This document shows, in pieces, positions 6,757 through 30,891 of a DNA stretch of 32,468 bases. Under the pieces are notes generated by a model. That model searched no databases. It was not told the DNA's origin and saw nothing but the letters and a program-made list of their open reading frames with translations. A program made the position numbers and the translations under genes. Source of the stretch: Magnetococcales bacterium (GTDB lineage Bacteria; Pseudomonadota; Magnetococcia; Magnetococcales; Magnetaquicoccaceae). Location: assembly GCA_015229095.1 (NCBI GenBank), contig JADGCE010000004.1, forward strand, positions 9,641 through 42,108, given 5' to 3'. Each line of letters begins with the position of its first letter. The first letter of the stretch is position 1.

Positions 6757-7458
6757 ATGTACAAACGGTCGCTTGTGCTGCTTGTGGTGGCAGCCGTTGC
6801 CCTCTTCTTTTATGCGGATCTGGACCACTATTTGACTCTGGAGGCCTTGCAGGCCAATTATCAACAGTTGGCCCTCCTGCAAGCCGATTCCCCCTGGTGG
6901 TTTGGCGGGGCCTTTTTTGTGCTCTACGTGGGGGTGACGGCCCTCTCCCTGCCCGGCACCACCCTCTTGATGTTGGCCGGTGGGGCGCTGTTTGGCCTGG
7001 GTCCGGCCACCCTCCTGATCTCCTTTGCCGCCAGTCTGGGTGCCACCCTGGCCTTTTTGCTGGCCCGCTATCTGTTGCGGGAGAGCATTCAATCCCGTTT
7101 TTCAGCACGGCTGGCCCGCATCAACCAGGGCTTGAGCCGCCATGGCGTTCTCTATCTCCTCACCCTGCGCCTGCTGCCCATTGTGCCATCGGCACTGGTC
7201 AATCTGCTCATGGGGTTGACCAACCTGCCGGCCCGCACCTTCTACTGGGTCAGCCAGGTGGGCATGCTGGCCGCCATCCTGATCTATGTGCGGGCAGGCA
7301 CCCAGTTGACCACCCTGCAACATCCCTCCGAACTGCTCTCCCTGCAACTTTTTGGTCCGCTTGTGCTGCTCTCCGGGCTGCCCTTGTTGGTCAACTATGG
7401 GTTAAAATACAGGGCTTATAAAAAGACGCTCAGCTCAACCACTGGGCGATCCGTGTAA
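6757..7458 (+). CDS. TVP38/TMEM64 (VTT/DedA-like) membrane protein
   Basis: ALSLPGTTLLMLAGGALFGLGPATLLISFAASLGATLAFLLARYLLRESI...LTLRLLPIVPSALVNLLMGLTNLPARTFYWVSQVGM. ORF track begins at upstream GTG 6745. Confidence 0.92.
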   Translation: MYKRSLVLLVVAAVALFFYADLDHYLTLEALQANYQQLALLQADSPWWFGGAFFVLYVGVTALSLPGTTLLMLAGGALFGLGPATLLISFAASLGATLAFLLARYLLRESIQSRFSARLARINQGLSRHGVLYLLTLRLLPIVPSALVNLLMGLTNLPARTFYWVSQVGMLAAILIYVRAGTQLTTLQHPSELLSLQLFGPLVLLSGLPLLVNYGLKYRAYKKTLSSTTGRSV

Positions 7459-8044
7459 AATGCCAGGGCAGTTCAAGAAAGCCGGCCACTCCTGAAACCA
7501 CTCCGATCAGACCAACCAGGAACGACGGAATGAGCATCCAGCGCGCGCGCATCACACCGCTGATCCCCAGCAGGGCGAGGGCAATGTTGATGCTGGCCTC
7601 GGCAACATCAAACTGATCGTCCCGGGCGTTCAGAACCGTGTATTGCTTTTCATGTCCTTCCGCTTGCTCCTTGATTTGCTCTTTCTCCGTGACCAGGGTG
7701 GCGATTTGGGTGTGCAGGGCGGCGATCTGGCTCTCCAGAGCGGCACGGAACTCTGCGGAGTGGCCTCCGCGCAACTGTTCCAGGCGCATGGACTGCAAAG
7801 TATGCTCCGCGAGGTGCTGTTTGGTGCTTTTGGCCTGGAAATAGTTCCAGGCACCCACGGCCTTGCTCTGCTCCTGGCTCATGGCCTGGGCGGTATTGCC
7901 ACCTGTGACGTTGAGCACCCCCAGCAGGGTGGCCAACAGGGTCACTGCGATGGAGACGCCCCAATTGAAACGTGCATCCGGGTCATGTTCGGGGGCACAG
8001 GCCGGTGCGGAGGGGGCGGCATCGGAAGAATCGGCGGGGCTCAT
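7430..8044 (-). CDS. DUF4337-like membrane protein (copy 1)
   Basis: TM + AWNYFQAKSTKQHL + coiled-coil + DVAEASINIALALLGISGVM + terminal TMs; same architecture as the product of 9113-9712. Confidence 0.75.
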   Translation of the reverse strand: MSPADSSDAAPSAPACAPEHDPDARFNWGVSIAVTLLATLLGVLNVTGGNTAQAMSQEQSKAVGAWNYFQAKSTKQHLAEHTLQSMRLEQLRGGHSAEFRAALESQIAALHTQIATLVTEKEQIKEQAEGHEKQYTVLNARDDQFDVAEASINIALALLGISGVMRARWMLIPSFLVGLIGVVSGVAGFLELPWHFTRIAQWLS

Positions 8045-8080
8045 GGCGAACTCCTTGGGGTGTTTGATCGGTGGTTGTCG

Positions 8081-9067
8081 TCAATCACAGGTATTGCAGT
8101 GGTTGACCTCCACCGAGAGATGATCCAGGCCGGCAATACCGCGCAACAGCCCTTTGTAATAGGCAGCATCCTGGAGCTGGTGGACGACCAGGGAGACGAT
8201 GCAGGCGTGGCTGCTGGGACCGACACGCCAAACGTGCAGATCCCCGATTTCGCAGTCGGCATGGGTGGTCAGGCAGGCTCGGATTTTTTCCCGTATCGGC
8301 GAGGTCTCTTCGGCATCCAGCAGGGTTTTGGCACTCTCCCGGATCAATCCCACGCTCCAGACAGCGATGACGGCAGACCCCACAATGCCCATGAGGGGAT
8401 CCATCCATACCCAACCCAGACTCTTGCCGCAGAAAAGGGCGACAATGGCGGTCACCGAGGTCAGGGCGTCGGCCAGCACGTGCAAATAGGCCCCCTTGAG
8501 ATTATGGTCCTGGTGATGCGGCGCACTCTCATGGTCGTGATGGTCGTGATGGTCGTGATGGTCGTGATGGTCATGGTGGTCGTGATGGTCGTGATGGCCA
8601 TGATGGTCATGGGCACCCCCCAATATCCAGGCACTGAGCAGATTGACCAGCAACCCCAACACCGCCACCGTCAGAGCCGTTCCAAACTCTACCGGTATGG
8701 GAGAGAGCAGGCGTTGGCTGGATTCGATGGCCATGAGAAGGGCGACAATACTCAGGGCGATGGCGCTGGCGAAACCTCCCAGGGGACCGGCCTTGCCGAC
8801 CCCAAAGGTGAAGCGGGGATTGTGGGCATTGCGGCGGGCAAAGAGATAGGCAAAGGCGGTCAGACCCAGGGCAGCGGCGTGGGTGCCCATGTGCCAACCG
8901 TCGGCGGTGAGGGCCATGGAGCCGGTCGCGTAGCCCACCAGCAGCTCCACAACCATGGTGACCAGGGTCAGGCCGATCACCCAGTGGGTGCGCCGCTCAG
9001 CGATCTGCGGCAGGTGCAATCCAAAGTGATGTTCGTGCTGCCAAAGGGCGATATCGTGGTTGGGCAC
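8081..9067 (-). CDS. dmeF: Cation diffusion facilitator, DmeF-like, with His-rich loop
   Basis: MVVELLVGYATGSMALTADGWHMGTHAAALGLTAFAYLFARR, HADCEIGDLHVWRVG, and the loop HDHHGHHDHHDHHDHH. Confidence 0.88.
   Translation of the reverse strand: MPNHDIALWQHEHHFGLHLPQIAERRTHWVIGLTLVTMVVELLVGYATGSMALTADGWHMGTHAAALGLTAFAYLFARRNAHNPRFTFGVGKAGPLGGFASAIALSIVALLMAIESSQRLLSPIPVEFGTALTVAVLGLLVNLLSAWILGGAHDHHGHHDHHDHHDHHDHHDHHDHHDHESAPHHQDHNLKGAYLHVLADALTSVTAIVALFCGKSLGWVWMDPLMGIVGSAVIAVWSVGLIRESAKTLLDAEETSPIREKIRACLTTHADCEIGDLHVWRVGPSSHACIVSLVVHQLQDAAYYKGLLRGIAGLDHLSVEVNHCNTCD
8531..8610. repeat. 9-bp tandem repeat (consensus ggtcgtgat) encoding (HDH)n
   Basis: Run of atggtcgtgatggtcgtgatggtcgtgatg... 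with a few variant units (ggtcatggt, ggccatgat). Confidence 0.95.
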
Positions 9068-9112
9068 CCGCAGAACTCCCGAAGAATAAAAGGATGATGT
9101 GTAACGGCCACC

Positions 9113-9712
9113 CTACAGGTGAATCAGGGTGGGGGCAAGCCAACCCAACAGACCGAAGGCAACCCCTACCAGGCCCAGGGCACCTGCACCATAGGCGAGG
9201 ATGGTCATGCTGGTGACGACAGAGGCGGAGGCCAGCACGATGGCGATTTGCACGGCGGCCGCTCCATACTCAAACATGTGATAGGCGGCAAAAGATCGGG
9301 CGCGGTGATCTTCTGCCGTCTTGGCCCTGGCGGCCAGCTCCTTGCGTCCTTCCCCTTTTTCCGGTTCGCTGTCATACCGCTTGGCCTTGGCGCGCCAATC
9401 GTCGATCCGTTTTTTCCAGACCTCGTTGGCGGGTTGCCCGACGGGCGTCATGGCCTCCATCATTTCGGCAGCGGTCTCCATGGTGGTCATGCGGATGGAT
9501 TTTGCTTGAAAAAAGGCCCATAAATTGGAGGCTTCAATGTTGGACGACACGTAGGCGCTCTGGGAACTGTTGACGCCGGTCTCGATCAAGGCCAACAGAC
9601 AGGCCAGGATGCTGATCATGATGGCGACATATTTCTTGCCGCCCCCTTCATGTCCTTCGTGACCGCCATGGGCGGCCTCGTGGATCTGCTCGTGGGTTTC
9701 CAGAATTTCCAT
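9113..9712 (-). CDS. DUF4337-like membrane protein (copy 2) with His-rich N-terminus
   Basis: MEILETHEQIHEAAHGGHEGHEGGGKKYVAIMISILACLLALIETGVNSSQ...NLWAFFQAKSIRMT; start trimmed from the ORF track's 10051 to 9712. Confidence 0.78.
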   Translation of the reverse strand: MEILETHEQIHEAAHGGHEGHEGGGKKYVAIMISILACLLALIETGVNSSQSAYVSSNIEASNLWAFFQAKSIRMTTMETAAEMMEAMTPVGQPANEVWKKRIDDWRAKAKRYDSEPEKGEGRKELAARAKTAEDHRARSFAAYHMFEYGAAAVQIAIVLASASVVTSMTILAYGAGALGLVGVAFGLLGWLAPTLIHL

Positions 9713-9887
9713 TTTGTCTATTCCTTGAGTGTAGCCATGGGAACAAAGGCCCGCCGTTGCCCGCGCATTCAACACCATTTGCGGAATCGGTGTCAATGCC
9801 CGCAGAATCACGAGGATCTTTTGTCGGGTGGTGCAGTCTGTCAACCGGTTGGTCGGGCCGGAAACGCAATCCAGACACGCACCGCTG

Positions 9888-10946
9888 TCAGGGCACCCGG
9901 ATCGGTGCCCGTCGGCTTCCCCATCCCCCTGGTGGACCATCAAAGCGTCCTGCACAGGCCGTGTGACAGTGTTGACACTGCCCTTTATCATCCAGATTCC
10001 AGCCGTTGACCGTATATCCCGACCGTTCAATGACCATTTGCCCACAGCCATGGCAATGGGTTATCCCCCCCGCCCGGTCCACGACATTGCCCGTATAGGC
10101 ATAGCGGACACCATTGGCCAACGCAATGTGGCGGGCCCGTTGCACGGTTGCTGTGGGTGTCGGGGGCTTGTCCAGCATTTTCCACGCGGGATGAAAAGCG
10201 GAAAAATGGATCGGCACCTCCGGCCCCAACCGTTCCACCACCCAGTTTGTCAGGGCCTCCAACTCGGCCTGGGAGTCATTTTCTCCCGGAATCAGCAAAG
10301 TGGTCAACTCCACCCAGACCGAGCGCTCTTTTTTGAGATATTCCAGCAGTTCCAAAACAGGTTGCAGGTGTCCCCCGGTCAGGCGGTAATAAAAGTCTTC
10401 CGAGAAAGATTTGAGGTCGATGTTGGCCGCATCCATCTGGCCAAACAGGAGGGCAGCCGGTTCGAGATGGATATAACCGGCTGTGACCGCAACGGATTGG
10501 ATGCCCACGGCCCGACAGGCGTGCGCCACATCCACCGCATATTCCAAAAAAATGACGGGATCGTTGTAGGTGTAGGCCACGCTGCGACAGCCGCTCCGCA
10601 CGGCCGCTGCGGCAATCGCCTCCGGGCTGGCATATTCGGCAATTTTCTCCATTTGTCGCGCCTTGCTGATGTCCCAGTTTTGACAAAACGTGCAGGCCAG
10701 ATTGCAGCCCGCCGTGCCGAATGACAGAATCGGTGTGCCTGGCAAAAAATGGTTCAGCGGCTTTTTTTCCACCGGATCCACACAAAAACCACTGGAGCGA
10801 CCATAGGTGGTCAGGCGCATTTTTCCCCCCTCATGGGCTCGGACAAAACAGAAGCCCCGCTGCCCCTCCCCCAATTGACAGTGGCGCGGACAGAGGTCGC
10901 ACTGGATACGACCGCCCTCCAGGGCATGCCAAAAGCCTGTTTCCAT
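9888..10946 (-). CDS. amrS: AmmeMemoRadiSam-type radical SAM protein (AmrS-like)
   Basis: CDLCPRHCQLGEGQRGFCFVRAHEGGKM, GCNLACTFCQNWDISKAR (CxxxCxxC), AYTYNDPVIFLEYAVDVA, C-terminal CHGCG...CQHC. ORF-track N-terminal extension (to 11762) runs antisense to the rubrerythrin-like gene and is discarded. Confidence 0.9.
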   Translation of the reverse strand: METGFWHALEGGRIQCDLCPRHCQLGEGQRGFCFVRAHEGGKMRLTTYGRSSGFCVDPVEKKPLNHFLPGTPILSFGTAGCNLACTFCQNWDISKARQMEKIAEYASPEAIAAAAVRSGCRSVAYTYNDPVIFLEYAVDVAHACRAVGIQSVAVTAGYIHLEPAALLFGQMDAANIDLKSFSEDFYYRLTGGHLQPVLELLEYLKKERSVWVELTTLLIPGENDSQAELEALTNWVVERLGPEVPIHFSAFHPAWKMLDKPPTPTATVQRARHIALANGVRYAYTGNVVDRAGGITHCHGCGQMVIERSGYTVNGWNLDDKGQCQHCHTACAGRFDGPPGGWGSRRAPIRVP

Positions 10947-17890: not shown

Positions 17891-18271
17891 TTACCTTTTG
17901 TTGCCGGACTTTTTCTTCGTCTTCCGATTATTGGAATGTGCAGGGGCAGGACGGGCGACGGCGGGGGCTGTCACCATTGCGGGAGGGGGGGGTGCCTCTT
18001 GCGTGCCGCAAAGCCTTTCGATGACGGCTTGCACCAGAGGGCGGCTGACATTGCGTGCGAGCAAGGCACTCTGAATCGTTTCCGGAGCTGTACCCAGACG
18101 CTGCTGCGCCATGACAAACTCCGCGACGATGATAACGGCCCCGACCACGTCCGTGTCGATGCCATACTCGACCAGGGCGCTTTGCACCTGAGCCGGGGAG
18201 GCTCCCTGTTGCAACCGCGAGGTGACAAACTCGGCGAGCATGGCCACGTTCTCTTCTCTTTTTGTCAGCAT
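17891..18271 (-). CDS. Small hypothetical protein with two ~35-aa internal repeats and a basic tail
   Basis: AEFVTSRLQQGASPAQVQSALVEYGIDTDVVGAVI / AEFVMAQQRLGTAPETIQSALLARNVSRPLVQAVI; tail NNRKTKKKSGNKR. Start trimmed to 18271. Confidence 0.65.
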   Translation of the reverse strand: MLTKREENVAMLAEFVTSRLQQGASPAQVQSALVEYGIDTDVVGAVIIVAEFVMAQQRLGTAPETIQSALLARNVSRPLVQAVIERLCGTQEAPPPPAMVTAPAVARPAPAHSNNRKTKKKSGNKR

Positions 18272-18435
18272 GATCGACCCTCCTGCAAGAATAATCCACC
18301 CAACGATGGCATGTTTGTAACCGCGCACTGGCCAACACTCCGACCGTGCTCTCTTTTCGCACAAAAACCCGTCCGTGGCAAGGGTTGAGCCTCCCCCTCT
18401 CCTGTGTATAAAAAAACCAGGGAGATGCAGAGGCT

Positions 18436-20079
18436 TCAGTTCTTGACAGTGTCGTTTGAGAGGTGGAGAAGCAACTGGTTCAGGTCCGTTTTGCCATTGG
18501 CATTCAGGGGCAGTTGGGAAAGACGTCGGATCTGCCGGGGCACCATGTAATAGGGCAGGCGTTTGGTACACTCAGTCAGGATCTCGGCATCGGCCAGGGA
18601 GGAAGCGCAGACGAACCCCACCACGCTGGTGACGTTGCCTCCGCCCGGGGGCCAACCGAGGACGGCCACCTGCTCTGTTCCGGCAACCTGACGCAGCACC
18701 TGTTCGATCTCCGCCAATTCCACCCGGTAACCTCGGATTTTTAACTGCCTGTCCAGTCGATCCACGTAGGAAAATCCCACCCCGGCCCTCCAGATGGCCA
18801 GATCTCCGGTTTTGTACCAGCGCTGCCGTTGCCCATCCGCCTCTGGCAGTTCCAGATAGCACCGCTCTGTTTCTGCGGCATTTTTCCAGTAACCGGGGGT
18901 GATTTGCGAGCCGCTGAGACAGAGCTCTCCTTTGATATTCTCAACGTTTTCATGTAACTGGCCATGAACCAGCAGTGCGGCGCGTTGACCGGCATAGGGG
19001 GTGCCGATTGGGACAACACCACGGTCGCAGTCGGCTTCGGAACGGCCAGTCTGCCATACGTAGCCGGTGATACAAATGGTGCCTTCGGTGGGGCCGTAGC
19101 TGTTTTCAATGCGGCTGTGGGGCGCGGCGGCTTGCCACCATTGGACCGCTTCCATGGTAAGCTGCTCCCCACCAAAGATGGACCAGCGCAATGAGGGGAA
19201 AAACCCCGGTTTGAGCAGGTACATGCGTTTCATGAAATGGATGACGGCGGGGACGGACTCCCAAAAAGTCAGGCCATGCTCCCTGATGAATTGAGCAGGG
19301 GCCATGCGGCTTTTTTGGGGGATGCAGTACAGGCAAGCCCCGGCCGCCCAGCAGACAAACTGATCATGCACCGAGGCGTCAAAGGTCAGGTCACTGTGCT
19401 GGGAAAAACGATCTTCCGGGGTGGGCTGATACCGTTCCAGCATCTGGCTGACAAAGGCATTGACATTGCCGGGGGAGACCATGACCCCTTTGGGCACGCC
19501 CGTGCTGCCGGAGGTGAAGAGCAGATAGGCGATGGGTGTCTGCGGTTGTTTGGGAGATTGCAGAGTGGGGGGGAGAGAAAAGATCTCATCACGCAAGAGG
19601 AAACGATGGCGGGAGAGGGTTTGGGTCCAGGGTGGCGCCGTTTCATGATCGGGGAGCAGGACCAGCAGGTTGCGTTGCACGGCCCGCAGCAGATCTTCAG
19701 CCAGGGGTTCACAGTGGCTGTCCAGGATCAGGAGATCCACCTCCGCCAAGTCGGCCATACGCAGGTTGCGCGCAACAGGAAAGGTGGGATTCAACGGGAC
19801 GTAACCCTTGCCCGCGTACAAAATGGCCAACAGTGCCCCGTAGGCGGTCAGGGAACGGTAGGCAAAAACGGCAGCAACCGGGTTGGCCGGATGAGGGTCC
19901 AGCCGTTCGATGGTGGAGGCGATTTGCAAGGCATAGTTTTTTAATTCAGAATAATTATAAAGTTTTTCATCCACAAACAGGGCAGGGCGGGAACCCTGTT
20001 GGCAGGCACTCCGGTGAAACCACTGAGCGATGTTGTCCTCTGAATGGGTGGAGATGGCAGGAGCGTTCTGGGTGTTCAT
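18436..20079 (-). CDS. Amino-acid adenylation enzyme (DltA/NRPS A-domain-like AMP-binding protein)
   Basis: LLFTSGSTGVPKGVMVSPGNV, LTFDASVHDQF, NSYGPTEGTICITGYVW, WYKTGDLAIW, DRLDRQLKIRGYRVELAEIE, LPLNANGKTDLNQLL. Confidence 0.92.
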   Translation of the reverse strand: MNTQNAPAISTHSEDNIAQWFHRSACQQGSRPALFVDEKLYNYSELKNYALQIASTIERLDPHPANPVAAVFAYRSLTAYGALLAILYAGKGYVPLNPTFPVARNLRMADLAEVDLLILDSHCEPLAEDLLRAVQRNLLVLLPDHETAPPWTQTLSRHRFLLRDEIFSLPPTLQSPKQPQTPIAYLLFTSGSTGVPKGVMVSPGNVNAFVSQMLERYQPTPEDRFSQHSDLTFDASVHDQFVCWAAGACLYCIPQKSRMAPAQFIREHGLTFWESVPAVIHFMKRMYLLKPGFFPSLRWSIFGGEQLTMEAVQWWQAAAPHSRIENSYGPTEGTICITGYVWQTGRSEADCDRGVVPIGTPYAGQRAALLVHGQLHENVENIKGELCLSGSQITPGYWKNAAETERCYLELPEADGQRQRWYKTGDLAIWRAGVGFSYVDRLDRQLKIRGYRVELAEIEQVLRQVAGTEQVAVLGWPPGGGNVTSVVGFVCASSLADAEILTECTKRLPYYMVPRQIRRLSQLPLNANGKTDLNQLLLHLSNDTVKN

Positions 20080-20115
20080 GGAGCGATTGCAGTCTCCCTT
20101 GTGCGTTCTGACGAT

Positions 20116-21642
20116 TCAAAGAGAGACGCCAAACAGGGCGAAGAAAAAGGTGGTATCCTGCATGAAGGAGGAACCGGGATGATCCCAAATGCGCAGGATG
20201 GAAAAAAAGAGCCAGACGCCGGCGATTTTACGGAGCGTCAGCAGGATGGTCAACACCGGGGAGGTGGTTGTCCGGGCTTTGCCCCGCTGATTTTTTTCGC
20301 GCAGCATGCTGACAAAAATGCCGAATCCCAGCACGAAAGAGTAAAAAAAGTAGGAAGAAAACTTTGTAAATGGGGCCAATGCCCCGTAGCCTATAAATGA
20401 ATCAAAGTTTTGCAATACGTGGTAATAGATGTTGCCCAGGAAGGCCGACATCATGGTGGCGGCAAAGATGCGCAGGGTGTGGTTTTTCTTGAAGAATGAC
20501 AGGTAGGTGGGATAGAAGAAAAATTCCACCAGAAGTTCTTTGAAATAATAGTAGTAACGGTTCCAGAAATCCACCAGGGAGGTGGCCAGCAGGGGTTTAT
20601 AGGTGTTGCGAAACACATGAAAACCGCAAAGACGCAGGGAACCGACAATCATATGTCCAACGATGGCCAGCTGCATGGTTTCATAAATCATGTCAACAAT
20701 CAGACTGGCCCAAACAACTTTCATGGCAGGCAGGGAGGCGCTGAGCCCGACCAGCGCATCCATGTGGTAGAGTTTCAGATAAAGGGGCTGCCCTCTGCTG
20801 CCAAAGAAGGCGGTATCCAGCAGATACAGGACAACGTGCCAGAGAGAGGCCAGCAGAAGCAGTTTCAGGCCGGCCAACTGGGATTTTGCCAAATCGAGCC
20901 GACTGTCGGCCTGTTTTTGGAGCAGATAGTCCAGCCCCTTCCCGTAGGGCACCTGGGTGGAACCCAGGTAGGGGAGGCAATAGATCAGGTGGTCCACGAA
21001 GCGGCTCTGTTTGATGGAACCGCGTCGGCCCGAATAGAGCATGAAGCCGATGCGCCAGATCAGAAAAGAGAAAAAAACCAGACAAACAGAGAGGTTATCG
21101 GCAACAGCCCAGGCGGGCAGATCCCGGAAACCGGATGGCAGAAAGACCAGGGCCAGGATGCAGCTCCACAGCAGCAGGTGGAGAAACATTTGTGGACTGT
21201 TGCGGACCACTCTGGGCAGGCTGGAGAATGCGCGGGCGACACGGAAAAAAAGGTAGAGCACGCCCACAATGATGCCGGCATCCACGGCCATCCACAGTGG
21301 TTCCGTGACCTCCAATCCTACCAGCTTTGTGTGCAAAAACAGGCTGCCTGCGCCGAGGCCCACAATCCACAGGCGATGGGCAGGAAAGATCTGTGCCAGG
21401 ATCATCACGGGCAGCAGGGGGAGATAGCGGGGAATGCTCAGGATCAGGGCGACCACCATCCACAGCAGCACATTGCCTTTCCATGTGGTTGAAAACTCAA
21501 GTATGCGTGTGTTTTCGTGAAATTGAGAAACTCGTTGGTACAAAGAGGGCGTTGTTCTCGCGGCTCCTTCCTGACGGATGGGCAGCGACCGCACCAGTTC
21601 GGCCGGACGGGAGAGTTGGCTCGTCATGGTGTTCATGGTCAA
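20116..21642 (-). CDS. MBOAT-family (DltB-like) membrane protein
   Basis: Multiple TM helices; SLVDFWNRYYYYFKELLVEFFFYPTYLSFF and a downstream His in LGNIYYHVLQN, consistent with an MBOAT core. Confidence 0.72.
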   Translation of the reverse strand: MTMNTMTSQLSRPAELVRSLPIRQEGAARTTPSLYQRVSQFHENTRILEFSTTWKGNVLLWMVVALILSIPRYLPLLPVMILAQIFPAHRLWIVGLGAGSLFLHTKLVGLEVTEPLWMAVDAGIIVGVLYLFFRVARAFSSLPRVVRNSPQMFLHLLLWSCILALVFLPSGFRDLPAWAVADNLSVCLVFFSFLIWRIGFMLYSGRRGSIKQSRFVDHLIYCLPYLGSTQVPYGKGLDYLLQKQADSRLDLAKSQLAGLKLLLLASLWHVVLYLLDTAFFGSRGQPLYLKLYHMDALVGLSASLPAMKVVWASLIVDMIYETMQLAIVGHMIVGSLRLCGFHVFRNTYKPLLATSLVDFWNRYYYYFKELLVEFFFYPTYLSFFKKNHTLRIFAATMMSAFLGNIYYHVLQNFDSFIGYGALAPFTKFSSYFFYSFVLGFGIFVSMLREKNQRGKARTTTSPVLTILLTLRKIAGVWLFFSILRIWDHPGSSFMQDTTFFFALFGVSL

Positions 21643-21741
21643 CGCGTTGTTCTCCTGTTCCCTTGAATCCAGAGAGAGCGAAATGTCCTGTGTGATGCGC
21701 GGCGAAAAGAGAGCCGGCAGGAGCCCGTGCCCGCGCGATGT

Positions 21742-21996
21742 CTATGATGCGCGTTTTTCTATCAGTTCCAGTATTTTCTGGATGGACTCAATCTCGAGGG
21801 GATCGATGCCCGTTTCGGAAAAATCCATTTTGAACTCTGATTCCAGAAAATCAATGATCTCCAGTGTGGCCAAGGAGTCGATCAGTCCGGACTTGACCAA
21901 TCCATCCCCGTCACCGATGCGGTCCACAGGGAGGTCGGGGCGGGCGATGGTTCTCAGAAACTGGATGAGTTTCTGTCTGTTGGCTTGGGTATTCAT
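21742..21996 (-). CDS. Acyl/peptidyl carrier protein (DltC/ACP-like)
   Basis: 84 aa; GDGDGLVKSGLIDSLATLEIIDFLESEFKMDFSETGIDPLEIESIQKILELI with DSL phosphopantetheine motif. Confidence 0.9.
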   Translation of the reverse strand: MNTQANRQKLIQFLRTIARPDLPVDRIGDGDGLVKSGLIDSLATLEIIDFLESEFKMDFSETGIDPLEIESIQKILELIEKRAS

Positions 21997-25118: not shown

Positions 25119-27800
25119 TCAAGAGGGGCTGATGATGCGCGGAGTGATAAACACCAGCAATTCCGTCTGCCTGTTGGAGGTGGACTTGTTTTTGAACAGC
25201 CAGCCCAGGAGCGGAATCTCTTTCAACTCCGGAATGCCGCGCTGGGCGTCACTCTGGTTGTTCTGAAAAATGCCTCCCAGGACGATGGTCTGCCCATCTT
25301 TGACCAGGGCCTGGGTCTCCACTTCGCGGGTGTTGAGGGCTGGCAGGACTGTGGCGGAATCTGTAATAGAGTTGTTTTTTGCCGAAACCTCCAGGGTAAT
25401 ATAGCCGTTGGCTGTCACATGGGGGGTCACCTTGAGACTCAAGGCAGCATCGATATACTGGTAGGTGGTTCCGCCACTCTCCGACTCTGTGGGGTAAGGT
25501 TGGCGGATCCCTTGGCTGATGCTGGCTTCCTTGTTGTTGGTAGTCAGTACCCGTGGACTGGAGATGGTTCTGGCCTTGCCGTTCACCTCCAAGGCACCCA
25601 ATTCGATATCCAGATCCAGCAGGGGCGAAAGGGAACCCAGGTGGATCCCCAGATTGCTCGTCACCCCCGTGGGCAGCTGGCCACCGACATTGTAGGTGGG
25701 GCCCCCGCCCGTCATCATCGGGCGGCGGGCCGTGGTGCGGGTGACATTCTGCTGGACGGCGTAGGCATTGCTCGCTGAATTGGACAGGCCCAACGGGGCA
25801 TCCACCGAACCCTTGTAATTCAAACCCCAGTTGATCCCCAGTCCCATGCTGCTGTCACGTCCCACCTCGACGATACGTGCCTCAATTAAAACCTGTGGAA
25901 TGGGTTTGTCCAGCTTGGCCACCATTTCCCGGATTTTTGCCAGGTTGGCTGCCATATCCTTGACAATCAGGGTATTGGTTCTTTGATCCACAGAAACACT
26001 GCCGCTGGCGGAGAGCATGCGGGGATTGCGACCGGCCTCCCGGTTACTCTGCGGGGAGCTGCCCGAACTGGCGGCGGTGGTGGGGCGGGTCGCGGTTGCA
26101 CCGCCACTGGTCGCGCCACCGCTGGCCGCCGCACGCTGATCTGTCTCCATGAGCAGATCCCGGATCTCTGAGGCCTTGGCAAAACTGACCGGTATCAACT
26201 CGGTGACAATCGGTTCCAGTTTTTGCTTGCTTTCGTGGGCCAGCAACTGCGCATCCGCAATCCCTTGCAATTCCGCATGGGGCGCCACACGCAGCACATT
26301 GCCCTGCAACACCTTGCCCAAACCCTTGGTTTCCAGAATCAGATCCAGTGCCTGGTCCCAGGGTACTTCCAGCAGCCGCATGGTCACCGTGCCCCTGACC
26401 GCATCGGACACCAGCAGGTTGAGATGGTTGATATCCGCCAGCAACCGCAAGGCATTGTGAATATCAATCCCCTTGAAATCCATGGAAACCTTGGCGCCGG
26501 AATAGACCGGCGGGGCTTTGTTGTCCCCTGTGTCAGAAGGTTTTACCTGTACCAGGATGGTTTTGCCTTGCTGGATGATTTCGTGCTGGTCTTCCATTGC
26601 GCTGAAGGCGATCGCCACCTGGGTATCGGCGCCCTCTTCGTATGTGTCAATGGTCTGGATGGGACCGCCAAAACTCTGCACATCCTGGCGTTGTCCCCCT
26701 GTGCCGTCGTGAGAGAGGGATTCTGCCAGTCGGGTCTCTTTCAGCGTGACACGCAACCGCTGCCCTTCGCGATGGGTATCCAGCAGGATATCGTCCCGGT
26801 TGGTCTGCAGCGTGACGACTCCCGTCCTGCCCGCCTGGTTGAACTCAACCGCCTCCACCTGTGGTATAGTTGTCAGGGGTAACGTGCCGGGATGTGTGGA
26901 GGTCAAAGAGATGACCGGCAGCCCCTCATCCCGATCGATCCGAAAGCCGATTGCCGGGTCATTCAAGGCCACCACCAACCGGGTTTTTTGCGGTTCGGCG
27001 GCCAGGTGTACCGCCTTGATCTCCCCGGAGGAGAGTTCCAGATCCTGACTGGAAGCCGGCCCGCTCACACCGATAAAATCAAAGATCAATTGCGGCGGCT
27101 GATGCAGTCGGAAGCTTTTCGGGTCGGGGACGGGCCCCACCCCGGAGAGGCGGATGCGGGTACCGCTGGTCGTGTTTGTGATATGAAAAGCGTCAAGATG
27201 TCGCCCACCGGGAACCGGTCGCCCCTGTTGCGGGGCAGCCTCCTCTGCGGCGGCTGAAGGGTGCTGTACACTGCCCAGGATGGTAAGATCGAGACCATCC
27301 GGGCGCTCCTGCACGCGATAGGCGCGTTGCCCCTGCAGGAACACCTCCAGCCGACTGCCCTGTTCGCCCTCTGCCATGGGGAAGAGGCCCGATACGCCGG
27401 GCAGGTCCACTATTTTGGGCTGCACGGCAGGTTCCAGGCGAGCCGACGGGAAAGTCAGCAAAAGACGGGGGGGAGTATCCAGTCCGAACACCTGGTAAGG
27501 CAGCCTGCCATTGCTGTTCAGGACGATGCGCACCCCTTGGGTGCTCTCTACCGCATCGATGCGGGAGATGAAGGTGGCATCTGTGGTTGCCCCGGTAGAT
27601 TCCAGGGGTTGGGTGGATGCCGCCGCAGGGCGGTCAACCGCTTCTTGTACACTCTGGGTGGCCGGTTGTGTCTCGGCAGGGAATGGGCCAGAGGCGCTGG
27701 TACGCAGGCAACCGAGCAGGCCGAATGAACTGCTCAACAGCAGGCTGCCTGTCAGGGTGGCGGTGGCCAATCGTCTAGTGTTTCGTTTGTATGGACGCAT
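25119..27800 (-). CDS. pilQ: Type IV pilus secretin PilQ
   Basis: AMIN-like N-term repeats; STN-like VSMDFKGIDIHNALRLLADINHLNLLVSD; C-terminal secretin (IPQVLIEARIVEVGRDSSMGLGINWG; DGQTIVLGGIF; IPLLGWLFKN; ELLVFITPRII). Start trimmed to 27800. Confidence 0.96.
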   Translation of the reverse strand: MRPYKRNTRRLATATLTGSLLLSSSFGLLGCLRTSASGPFPAETQPATQSVQEAVDRPAAASTQPLESTGATTDATFISRIDAVESTQGVRIVLNSNGRLPYQVFGLDTPPRLLLTFPSARLEPAVQPKIVDLPGVSGLFPMAEGEQGSRLEVFLQGQRAYRVQERPDGLDLTILGSVQHPSAAAEEAAPQQGRPVPGGRHLDAFHITNTTSGTRIRLSGVGPVPDPKSFRLHQPPQLIFDFIGVSGPASSQDLELSSGEIKAVHLAAEPQKTRLVVALNDPAIGFRIDRDEGLPVISLTSTHPGTLPLTTIPQVEAVEFNQAGRTGVVTLQTNRDDILLDTHREGQRLRVTLKETRLAESLSHDGTGGQRQDVQSFGGPIQTIDTYEEGADTQVAIAFSAMEDQHEIIQQGKTILVQVKPSDTGDNKAPPVYSGAKVSMDFKGIDIHNALRLLADINHLNLLVSDAVRGTVTMRLLEVPWDQALDLILETKGLGKVLQGNVLRVAPHAELQGIADAQLLAHESKQKLEPIVTELIPVSFAKASEIRDLLMETDQRAAASGGATSGGATATRPTTAASSGSSPQSNREAGRNPRMLSASGSVSVDQRTNTLIVKDMAANLAKIREMVAKLDKPIPQVLIEARIVEVGRDSSMGLGINWGLNYKGSVDAPLGLSNSASNAYAVQQNVTRTTARRPMMTGGGPTYNVGGQLPTGVTSNLGIHLGSLSPLLDLDIELGALEVNGKARTISSPRVLTTNNKEASISQGIRQPYPTESESGGTTYQYIDAALSLKVTPHVTANGYITLEVSAKNNSITDSATVLPALNTREVETQALVKDGQTIVLGGIFQNNQSDAQRGIPELKEIPLLGWLFKNKSTSNRQTELLVFITPRIISPS

Positions 27801-28308
27801 TTTCCCGTCTCTTTTCGTCAGGAGTGTGCAAGTGTAATGTCGTGCGTTGCGTGGCGTGGGGATCGCGCAGCTTGGGTGCGGGCTCCTCGATGGTGATCTC
27901 CCCATCGCGAATTTCAATGATTTTTCCTTCATTGACGCCGAGATAACTGCCCACCTGGATCAGATGACCGATACCTTCCGGATCTTCAACCATGGCGACC
28001 GACTGGCCAGTTGATTCGGAACCCTTCTGGCGGTTTGCGTTTAAAACGATGGCGACCAGTTTTAGGCTGTCTATTTGAAAAGATTCTAAAAATTCTTTTT
28101 CACGTTTTTTGGCAGGCACCTTGGAATTGGTCGCTTCTTCCAAGGCAACGGCCACAGCAGGGGGTTGAAACGGATCCCGCCGTCCTTCCGCACGATAGTC
28201 GAAAGGGGGAAGTTCGGTCGACTGGGCTCCTGGTGCAGGGGTTTGGGCCAACACAGTGCTGCTGCTGCCTGCCAGTGCGGCGAGCATGATCCAAGCAGGG
28301 ATTTTCAT
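27775..28308 (-). CDS. pilP: Type IV pilus assembly protein PilP
   Basis: YRAEGRRDPFQPP...ESFQIDSLKLVAIVLN...VGSYLGVNEGKIIEIRDGEITIEE; position between pilO and pilQ. Confidence 0.93.
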   Translation of the reverse strand: MKIPAWIMLAALAGSSSTVLAQTPAPGAQSTELPPFDYRAEGRRDPFQPPAVAVALEEATNSKVPAKKREKEFLESFQIDSLKLVAIVLNANRQKGSESTGQSVAMVEDPEGIGHLIQVGSYLGVNEGKIIEIRDGEITIEEPAPKLRDPHATQRTTLHLHTPDEKRRENASIQTKH

Positions 28309-28922
28309 TTTTTTCCTGCTCCTTTGGCCTCTTGCCCCTTTTGTGCCAGGGCCTGCTGGTTGAGAAAACGGTAGGTGGCGGCACGAGCCTTGGTCTGTAG
28401 AATATTGCCTTTTTCCTTGTTGGTTTCCACGATCAGGTCCGCAAAGGTGACGATGCGGGGCATTTGGGCAACCTGATGGATGAACAGGGCGGTGGCGTGA
28501 AAGGATCCACGTACCTCAATACCGACGGGCACCTCGGCGTACAGTTCCCGACTGATTTCAGCACCCGGCGCGAACGAGACAAATTCCAAACCTTGTTCGT
28601 GCCCGGCATTGGAAATATCGGTGAGCAGATTGGGGATCTCCTTTTCCGACGGCAATTTTTGCGCCAACCTCTCTTCTTCCGCTTTGAGTACGGCCAGCTC
28701 CTCCCGTTTTTTGGGCAGTTGCGCCAGCAGACGTCGTTTGGATGCCAACTGCTCGGTTTGCTGTTGAATGTCAGCGCGCAACTGCTCCATTTGCGCGTGG
28801 CGATCGCGCCACACGAACCACCCATACCCCACGACGAGTATGAATATGAGCCCAGCACTGATGCCGATTCTGTACAGCGGTTTCAACCGCAGAATCACAA
28901 GAGGATCAAATCCAAGTTCCAT
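28305..28922 (-). CDS. pilO: Type IV pilus assembly protein PilO
   Basis: N-terminal TM + coiled-coil + GLEFVSFAPGAE...YAEVPVGIEVRGSFHATALFIHQVAQMPRIVTF; start trimmed to 28922. Confidence 0.94.
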   Translation of the reverse strand: MELGFDPLVILRLKPLYRIGISAGLIFILVVGYGWFVWRDRHAQMEQLRADIQQQTEQLASKRRLLAQLPKKREELAVLKAEEERLAQKLPSEKEIPNLLTDISNAGHEQGLEFVSFAPGAEISRELYAEVPVGIEVRGSFHATALFIHQVAQMPRIVTFADLIVETNKEKGNILQTKARAATYRFLNQQALAQKGQEAKGAGKK

Positions 28923-28926
28923 GATC

Positions 28927-29550
28927 TTATTTTCCCAAAGCGGATACCGTCTGTGCGCCACCCTGGGGGATGGAGGCTGTGGCTGTCGATGGTTTGGGTG
29001 TTGAAAACTTTAAATGAAGTGAAAAGTTGTGTGCTTTGCCCTGTATTGTTTTGGATGCCGGGGAGCGTGACAATTCAATGCTGGATAATTCGATATCTGA
29101 CAAATAAGGAGATTTTGCCAGTTTTCTCATGAAATCGGCAACGACGGCGCTGGAGGTGGCAGAGCCGGTCAAAGTCATCTGGTTTCTTTTCGTTTCGATC
29201 TTGGTCAGCCAGACTTGGTCGGGAATGGTTGTGGTCAACTCAGCCAGCACACGGATGGTGATGCTTTGTTCCTGGCTGAGCTGGTGAATCAATTTCAAAC
29301 GGGCCTCCGCCAACGCCTTTCTGTCATTGATCTCCTTGACCTCTCCCAGTTGTTCATCCAATGCCGCGATCATGTTGCTGTTGGAGGCTTTGGTGGCTGT
29401 TTGCTGCTGAATCTCACCCAGGATCAGCTGATCGACGCCGAACAGGAGCACGCAACCTGCCACGACCGTGCCCAGCCAAGTGAACAGGATGCGTTTAAGA
29501 GCGCGGAGTCGTTGTGCGGGGCGGTAGGGGAGCAGGTTGATGCGAATCAT
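28927..29550 (-). CDS. pilN: Type IV pilus assembly protein PilN
   Basis: MIRINLLPYRPAQRLRALKR, TM, coiled-coil, IPDQVWLTKIE. Confidence 0.95.
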   Translation of the reverse strand: MIRINLLPYRPAQRLRALKRILFTWLGTVVAGCVLLFGVDQLILGEIQQQTATKASNSNMIAALDEQLGEVKEINDRKALAEARLKLIHQLSQEQSITIRVLAELTTTIPDQVWLTKIETKRNQMTLTGSATSSAVVADFMRKLAKSPYLSDIELSSIELSRSPASKTIQGKAHNFSLHLKFSTPKPSTATASIPQGGAQTVSALGK

Positions 29551-30740
29551 GGCATATCTCCCCGCAGAGCCAACCCCAGGGCCACCATGAAACGGGGTGC
29601 CATCTGTTGAATCAACGATGCCGATCCGCTTCCTGGCTTGCCACGGCTGCGTGGATGTGTCAGATTGGCGAAGGTGGCTGTCTGAACCGGCAGTTCCAAC
29701 TGTTCGCTGATAAAGGGAGCCGCATTGGCCAACAGGGCGCCACCACCGGAGAGGCAGACAGCGGTAATCGGTTGTTCCTGTGTGCCTGTTTTGTGAAAAC
29801 TGATGGCTTGGCGAATCTGTTGCACCACCTGCTCCAGAAAGGGGTTGATGGCTTCGTTACGCAGATCCGTGGATGCGGAATGGCGCGGGTTCTCTTGTTC
29901 TGGCATAATGAGCCGCTGTTCCGCTGCCGCCCAGCTCAGATCGTAGCGCGACTGGATCTCCTGGATCAGTTGACGGCAGCCCAGGGCATGGTCGCGAATA
30001 TAGCCGGGCAACCCCTGGGAGGTGACCATGGCAATGTTCAGAAAAGTGGCGCCAAGATTGACCAGAACGACGGTCTCCATCGGTTGGTCATGGGTGCGTG
30101 CGGAGGCCTTCGGCAGGGTGGTTTTTCTCTCCGCTGGTTGTTGCAAAGATACCGTTTTTTCCAAGGGCCCGACGAAAGCGGTGTATGCATTGACCAGGCA
30201 AAACAGGTCCAGATCGCAGACCTGCGGCTGCAAACCTGCTTGACGAATGACCTCGGTGTGGTTATGAATAACCTCCTTCTTGCAGGCTGTTAAAAGGACT
30301 TCCATGCTCTCCTCCTGCTGGCTCAGGATCTGGAAATCCAGGTGCACATCGTCGATATCGAAGGGGATATACTCTTCGGCTTCCAGGGCGATCTGCTCCT
30401 CCAGATCCAGTTCCGTCATGCGGGTCATTTGGATCTTTTTGGTGATGACGGATGTGCCGCTCAGAGAGATGGCGGTCTGTTGGGTGGTGATGCCGCTGCT
30501 GGCCAGAACCTCCTTGATGGCCTGAGTGACCAGCTCCGGTTGTTTGATGTGACCGTCGATGACGGCGTCCGGGGCGAGAGGCTGCATGCCACAGTGCAAC
30601 AGTTGCCACTGTTTGCCCGAGCGTTTGATTTCTGCCACTTTAATGGCGGATGAGCCGATATCCAGGCCGACCACAGGGCGGTGTCGTGCCGGTGATGCTG
30701 CCGGGCGGTTGGCGTGGAACAGACGGGACAAAGAAAACAT
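29547..30740 (-). CDS. pilM: Type IV pilus assembly ATPase-fold protein PilM
   Basis: VVGLDIGSSAIKVAEIKRSGKQWQL, EEQIALEAEEYIPFDIDDVHLDFQIL, VNLGATFLNIAMV, ICLSGGGALLAN-like motif (AVCLSGGGALLAN). Start trimmed to 30740. Confidence 0.95.
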   Translation of the reverse strand: MFSLSRLFHANRPAASPARHRPVVGLDIGSSAIKVAEIKRSGKQWQLLHCGMQPLAPDAVIDGHIKQPELVTQAIKEVLASSGITTQQTAISLSGTSVITKKIQMTRMTELDLEEQIALEAEEYIPFDIDDVHLDFQILSQQEESMEVLLTACKKEVIHNHTEVIRQAGLQPQVCDLDLFCLVNAYTAFVGPLEKTVSLQQPAERKTTLPKASARTHDQPMETVVLVNLGATFLNIAMVTSQGLPGYIRDHALGCRQLIQEIQSRYDLSWAAAEQRLIMPEQENPRHSASTDLRNEAINPFLEQVVQQIRQAISFHKTGTQEQPITAVCLSGGGALLANAAPFISEQLELPVQTATFANLTHPRSRGKPGSGSASLIQQMAPRFMVALGLALRGDMP

Positions 30741-30891
30741 AGGGGTCTCAATCTCAGGAAACAGGTCGCTCTTGTGGTGGCAGACTGTTGCGCGCTGCTC
30801 AGCCAACCGGAATGCTGGACAGCCGTGGCGGCACTTTCTGTCAAACCGGGCAGCGTTGGTCCAACCTTTTTGGTGCGTTTATGTATAATCC

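Follow-up and report, generated by a model that had tools for sequence, protein, structure and literature searches.

Three adjacent genes on the - strand of the DNA studied here, a 32,468-nucleotide stretch (the window) from the MAG of a magnetotactic, Gram-negative member of the Magnetococcales, are proposed to encode a system that transfers a basic amino acid, by way of a carrier protein, to a membrane-anchored acceptor in the cell envelope, a reading to which we give an even chance. A wider proposal is put forward with some doubt: an undescribed MBOAT clade, together with an adenylating enzyme (A-enzyme) and a carrier, could place ornithine or lysine on lipid A or a different membrane anchor, which would be a tRNA-independent cationic aminoacylation of the envelope in Gram-negatives, and related cassettes of rhizobia, Acidobacteria, Verrucomicrobia and Nitrospirae could carry different acyl or amino acids. 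If true, surface aminoacylation of the Dlt/Alm type would be extended to basic amino acids and to further Gram-negative phyla, for which no description was found in the literature searched.

The window is part of contig C186 of genome G000 (2.63 Mb, 200 contigs, 75% complete), to which, among named genomes, Magnetococcales MAGs and Candidatus Magnetaquicoccus inordinatus UR-1 come closest. LpxC was detected in this genome and in all relatives examined for it, supporting a Gram-negative host in which LPS is made. According to the ORF calls, the trio is transcribed in the order carrier protein (84 aa; 21742-21996, - strand), MBOAT-like membrane protein (508 aa; 20116-21642, - strand) and stand-alone A-enzyme (547 aa; 18436-20079, - strand), with gaps of 99 bp (carrier/MBOAT) and 36 bp (MBOAT/A-enzyme). 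The MBOAT gene starts with TTG, and AGGAG is found eight bases ahead of it. The carrier contains a phosphopantetheine attachment motif (GLIDSL, Ser41), and the motifs TSGSTGVPKG, FDAS and NGKTDL are present in the A-enzyme. An earlier note on this DNA had described the same gene order, gaps and motifs (with the attachment Ser in DSL) in an apparently Gram-negative genome, in agreement with the ORF coordinates, the translations and the presence of LpxC.

No condensation, thioesterase or extra A-domain modules lie near the trio, the neighbours being a TolC-like gene, AroB, PilMNOPQ, a cation efflux gene and carbonic anhydrase. The genes flanking the trio differ among relatives, so that it is self-contained. 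Both observations speak against a fragment of an ordinary NRPS cluster, which the earlier note had named as what would overturn its reading. The TolC-like and AroB neighbours were rejected as parts of the system, since the trios of relatives have no adjoining AroB and TolC gave weak matches in two only. The downstream ORF 17891-18571 was likewise rejected as a fourth gene, as relatives have no conserved equivalent of it and it reached the cut-off of no family. Elsewhere in the window, a PilM-PilN-PilO-PilP-secretin cluster followed by aroB (25119-30806) lies directly upstream of the TolC-like gene, and a cation efflux gene is flanked by two DUF4337 genes (7430-10051).

The middle protein had been called an MBOAT by eye. 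By sequence it had no match in Pfam (even at E 10), NCBIfam, PHROGs or the PDB, and PF03062 matched none of the 54 members of its family (the window protein and 53 aligned relatives), although this profile does pick up a different MBOAT encoded by this genome. AlphaFold was run on 17 sequences (pLDDT 78.6) and on 54 (pLDDT 90.1). With the second model, the 27 best PDB matches in Foldseek were all MBOATs, headed by DltB (E 4e-6, probability 1.00, TM about 0.5-0.6) and followed by HHAT, PORCN, MBOAT7, DGAT1, ACAT/SOAT and LPCAT3. Comparison of the family with five ordinary MBOATs by hhalign gave 96.3% (E 1.6e-9), pairing GFHVFRNTYKPLLATSLVDFWNRYYYYFKELLVEFFFYPTY of the clade with a 41-letter stretch of the ordinary proteins. 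This evidence on the fold outweighs the missing PF03062 match, and membership of the MBOAT superfamily was therefore kept. Models and profile comparison together confirm the predicted MBOAT fold of the middle protein, in a separate clade that lies outside the reach of Pfam and is distinct from DltB, exposing a branch of the superfamily that standard annotation misses entirely. The call made by eye is thus borne out, including the presence of the fold, the lack of which had been set beforehand as fatal to it. One sequence (L040) was rejected as a clade member, being an ordinary MBOAT wrongly drawn in. The literature searched, with most subscription papers outside its coverage, contained reports on AlmEFG, Dlt and Bordetella dra, and nothing on this clade.

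MBOATs use an invariant His and a second residue that may be Asn, Asp or His (PMC12979248), and in DltB residues 289 and 336 are named as active, residue 289 being given both as His and as Asn (PMC11035591). In the window's protein the invariant His, equivalent to His336 of DltB, is His408 (codon 20419-20421, - strand), which the alignment found in 81 of 86 relatives. The second position, occupied in ordinary MBOATs by the His of RWH, is Tyr364 (codon 20551-20553, - strand; placed by hhalign and alignment), which is nearly invariant in the 54-sequence alignment and is none of the three residues in use elsewhere. It lies within the stretch FWNRYYYYF (residues 359-367) of the clade motif FWNRYYYYFKELLVxFFFxP. 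Judged from the alignments, this Tyr is a real departure that extends across several phyla and a puzzle in MBOAT chemistry. Because Tyr replaces His, Asn or Asp, activity of the protein is not assured; another residue may fill the second catalytic role in this clade.

The A-enzyme matched the Pfam AMP-binding family at 1e-58 and TIGR01733 with 312 bits, just under the cut-off of 317. Its best solved stand-alone relatives were 8k4r (275 bits), AlmE (265 bits over most of the length; 4oxi, PMC11253843) and 6akd (257 bits), as compared with about 126-149 bits for DltA structures, so by sequence it appears nearer to AlmE than to DltA. The specificity code, the reading of which the earlier note had proposed, was obtained by placing ten pocket residues by motif alignment (D234, A235, H238, E274, I301, G303, S327, I335, C336 and K530), giving DAHEIGSICK. 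The Asp that opens the code and binds the alpha-amino group is retained, as is the closing Lys (equivalents of Asp235 and Lys517), and the Magnetococcales copies share the code DA[YH]E[VI]G[ST]ICK. The code of the window enzyme is identical at 7 of 10 positions to the ornithine code DVGEIGSIDK (PMC3992020) and at 5 of 8 to the lysine code DAESIGSV of bacitracin synthetase (PMC3207962), and has Glu at position 4, as does the ornithine domain BacB-M2 (PMC10522769). From this resemblance it is a fair inference that the substrate is a diamino acid of the ornithine/lysine type and not D-Ala. The carrier matched Pfam PP-binding at E 0.0068, below the Pfam cut-off, and curated carrier-protein models at 7e-7 to 2e-4; its GLIDSL-type attachment motif is conserved in relatives. 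Comparison of sequences and structures establishes the enzyme families of all three members of the trio.

The MBOAT, and likewise the whole trio, is present in each of the 11 searched family genomes with a completeness of 90% or more; in two of these (G008 and G013) the A-enzyme lies at a separate locus, unlinked from the MBOAT-carrier pair, and keeps the same code. The window's own clade comprises 13 loci, of which 12 have a neighbouring carrier and 11 a neighbouring ligase, so that the trio is not a chance arrangement. Outside the family the MBOAT is rare: a search of 299 genomes spread over the phylum gave 12 family matches and one other. Its relatives are scattered over rhizobia, Acidobacteria, Verrucomicrobia, Nitrospirae, Gammaproteobacteria and Desulfobulbaceae, and both carrier and ligase adjoin the MBOAT at 58 of 79 loci, some of the misses being due to contig ends. 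No plasmid-borne relative was found for the window's copy or for a rhizobial copy.

In the MBOAT tree three clades were distinguished, the first being that of the window, which takes in a single Desulfobulbaceae MAG whose code is of the same type. In the second, the partner ligase is without the amino-acid Asp and has a code beginning GHIS, like acyl-CoA ligases, while in the third the partner enzymes have many other amino-acid-type codes. An acyl-CoA-ligase-like enzyme is the partner in the closest sister clade, so that specificity for amino acids is not a property of the MBOAT clade. At 16 of 23 loci of the second clade there is a gene clustering with LtaS-like sulfatase-fold proteins (Pfam check on representatives only). 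At L079 and L082, which belong to the third clade, the gene that comes next encodes a CptA-type phosphoethanolamine transferase, and a profile match verified this for L082. These genes suggest that the sister systems act in the envelope. No such acceptor-making gene is linked at any of the 13 loci of the window's clade, and an LtaS-like partner was looked for and not found in the window's genome; the acceptor suggested by the sister loci was therefore not transferred to the window system.

A second trio with the same three enzyme types was found in the same genome (L136:8124-11638; G000:C154:33123-36637). It consists of an A-enzyme 40% identical to that of the window, an 81-aa carrier and an ordinary PF03062 MBOAT in which both active-site His are present. 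Unlike the window's enzyme, its A-enzyme has a code of the small-amino-acid type (DLHVLCLVAK), with a Leu/Cys pocket like those reported for AlmE and DltA. A-enzymes with nearly the same code occur in five other genomes of the family. The bacterium may therefore run two aminoacylation systems side by side, with a small amino acid as the substrate of one and a basic amino acid as that of the other.

The earlier note had regarded the window genes as a Dlt-like trio, after the Gram-positive DltABC(X)D system, which attaches D-Ala to teichoic acids. The architecture of A-enzyme, carrier and MBOAT, the catalytic His and DltB as the nearest structure fit with this, as they would with ordinary D-alanylation of a teichoic-acid-like polymer by a system whose DltD has been lost or escaped recognition. 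We consider such D-alanylation very improbable. DltD (PF04914), sought genome-wide, was absent from all 21 genomes (that of the window and 20 relatives) while the positive controls worked, as the note had reported for the window; as the window's genome is incomplete, this absence rests on the relatives. The A-enzyme scored 194.5 bits against the DltA model (curated cut-off 559.85), no enzyme in 16 genomes exceeded that cut-off, and no teichoic acid genes lie beside the trio. The DltA pocket was described with Leu198 and Cys268 (PMC11253843), where the window enzyme has Ala/His/Glu and Gly, and the Leu/Cys pocket is found in the second trio instead. The MBOAT, which has no RWH His, belongs to a clade other than that of DltB. 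Of the Dlt comparison, the architecture, the fold and the lack of DltD hold, while the A-enzyme and the MBOAT depart from it. The pocket code could still mislead, the enzyme activating some other amino acid (e.g. Gln, Asp or a non-proteinogenic one) with the rest of the pathway unchanged; code-based prediction is degenerate, as discussed in PMC10522769, and three of the ten positions differ from the ornithine code. This appears improbable, in that every Magnetococcales copy has the Glu4 and the Gly-Ser-Ile at positions 6-8 that are shared with the ornithine code, the sole changes noted there being Val/Ile swaps at position 5 and one Ser to Thr.

The chief rival to transfer onto an envelope acceptor is the production of a free aminolipid or small metabolite, in which the MBOAT would join the carrier-bound amino acid to a fatty acid, an alcohol or another partner. 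MBOATs often act on lipids and small molecules, the best curated match of the carrier is a carrier of ornithine-lipid synthesis (far under the cut-off of that model), and some distant relatives adjoin radical SAM or methyltransferase genes, as in biosynthetic clusters. Against this, the trios of the window's clade have no conserved neighbour of a biosynthetic, acyltransferase or export type, and occurrence in every near-complete genome of the family suits a core envelope function better than a metabolite cluster. A free product is accordingly held to be unlikely, and envelope transfer is the reading followed below.

Among Gram-negative systems the trio resembles AlmEFG of Vibrio cholerae, which adds glycine to lipid A and also combines a stand-alone A-enzyme, a separate carrier and a membrane transferase. 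The transferase AlmG is of the LPLAT type (PMC3783018), in contrast to the MBOAT fold of the window protein. The glycine pocket of AlmE contains Leu248 and Cys316 (PMC11253843), where the window enzyme has Ala and Gly (placed by motif, not by alignment with AlmE); its pocket predicts a basic amino acid in place of Gly, and lipid A, the acceptor of AlmEFG, would here be only a possible one. The trio thus falls outside both Dlt and Alm, yet it appears to work like both. PosA and epsilon-poly-lysine synthetase, which make cationic homopolyamino acids, likewise couple the adenylation of ornithine or lysine to a membrane protein (PMC10522769). These are single proteins with tandem condensation-like domains and Glu at code position 3, as opposed to three separate proteins, an MBOAT and Glu at position 4 in the window system. 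In lysyl-phosphatidylglycerol synthesis by MprF, a cationic amino acid is likewise placed on a membrane anchor; the predicted outcome is similar, but MprF takes the amino acid from aminoacyl-tRNA and the window system would use an A-enzyme and a carrier.

In the proposed pathway, the A-enzyme would adenylate a basic amino acid (ornithine, lysine or diaminobutyrate) at the expense of ATP and attach it, through a thioester bond, to the phosphopantetheine arm of the 84-aa carrier. The charged carrier would then dock at the cytoplasmic face of the MBOAT, and the aminoacyl group would travel through the MBOAT tunnel as far as His408. From there it would be handed to an envelope molecule anchored in the membrane, at a hydroxyl or an amine, with no need of a helper of the DltD type. 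Charging of the carrier and transfer by the MBOAT are inferred here by analogy, and the direction of transfer, the acceptor and the physiological role would follow those of Dlt and Alm. The acceptor is placed at the outer side of the inner membrane, and the likely result would be added positive charge at the cell surface. The envelope is a plausible target because of the polytopic MBOAT, the likeness to AlmE, and the LtaS-like or CptA genes beside the sister systems. The envelope aminoacylation suggested in the earlier note is therefore plausible, and the amino acid predicted from the pocket is of the ornithine/lysine type instead of D-Ala. The trio is small and self-contained, and is directly testable.

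Several further observations were made on the relatives. Loci of the sister clade (including L054:6161-8167, L065:11483-13489 and L069:6203-8125) combine the MBOAT, an acyl-CoA-ligase-like enzyme and a carrier, often with an LtaS-like membrane protein of the sulfatase fold, and some also carry a PEP mutase/methylisocitrate-lyase-like gene; these cassettes may represent a further undescribed decoration of the envelope. In Bradyrhizobium and Acidobacteria a fourth gene recurs, which was rejected as a DltD equivalent because it is a piece of an A-subdomain joined to a methyltransferase. This fusion lies beside A-MBOAT-carrier cassettes (L117:8395-9969 and L101:6610-7845), and may methylate the carrier-bound amino acid. 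Four tandem MBOATs of the family are found in a deltaproteobacterial MAG (L057:6624-12562). A more distant MBOAT group of about 570 aa, with the motif FWxRFTYHYREFLVR, lies next to carriers and ligases in further families of the Magnetococcales and in one other class (L035, L036, L037, L038 and L039). The match to one LtaS-like relative (L124; G024:C19:24477-26447) contains two in-frame stops, one TAG and one TAA, and this is perhaps a decayed gene.
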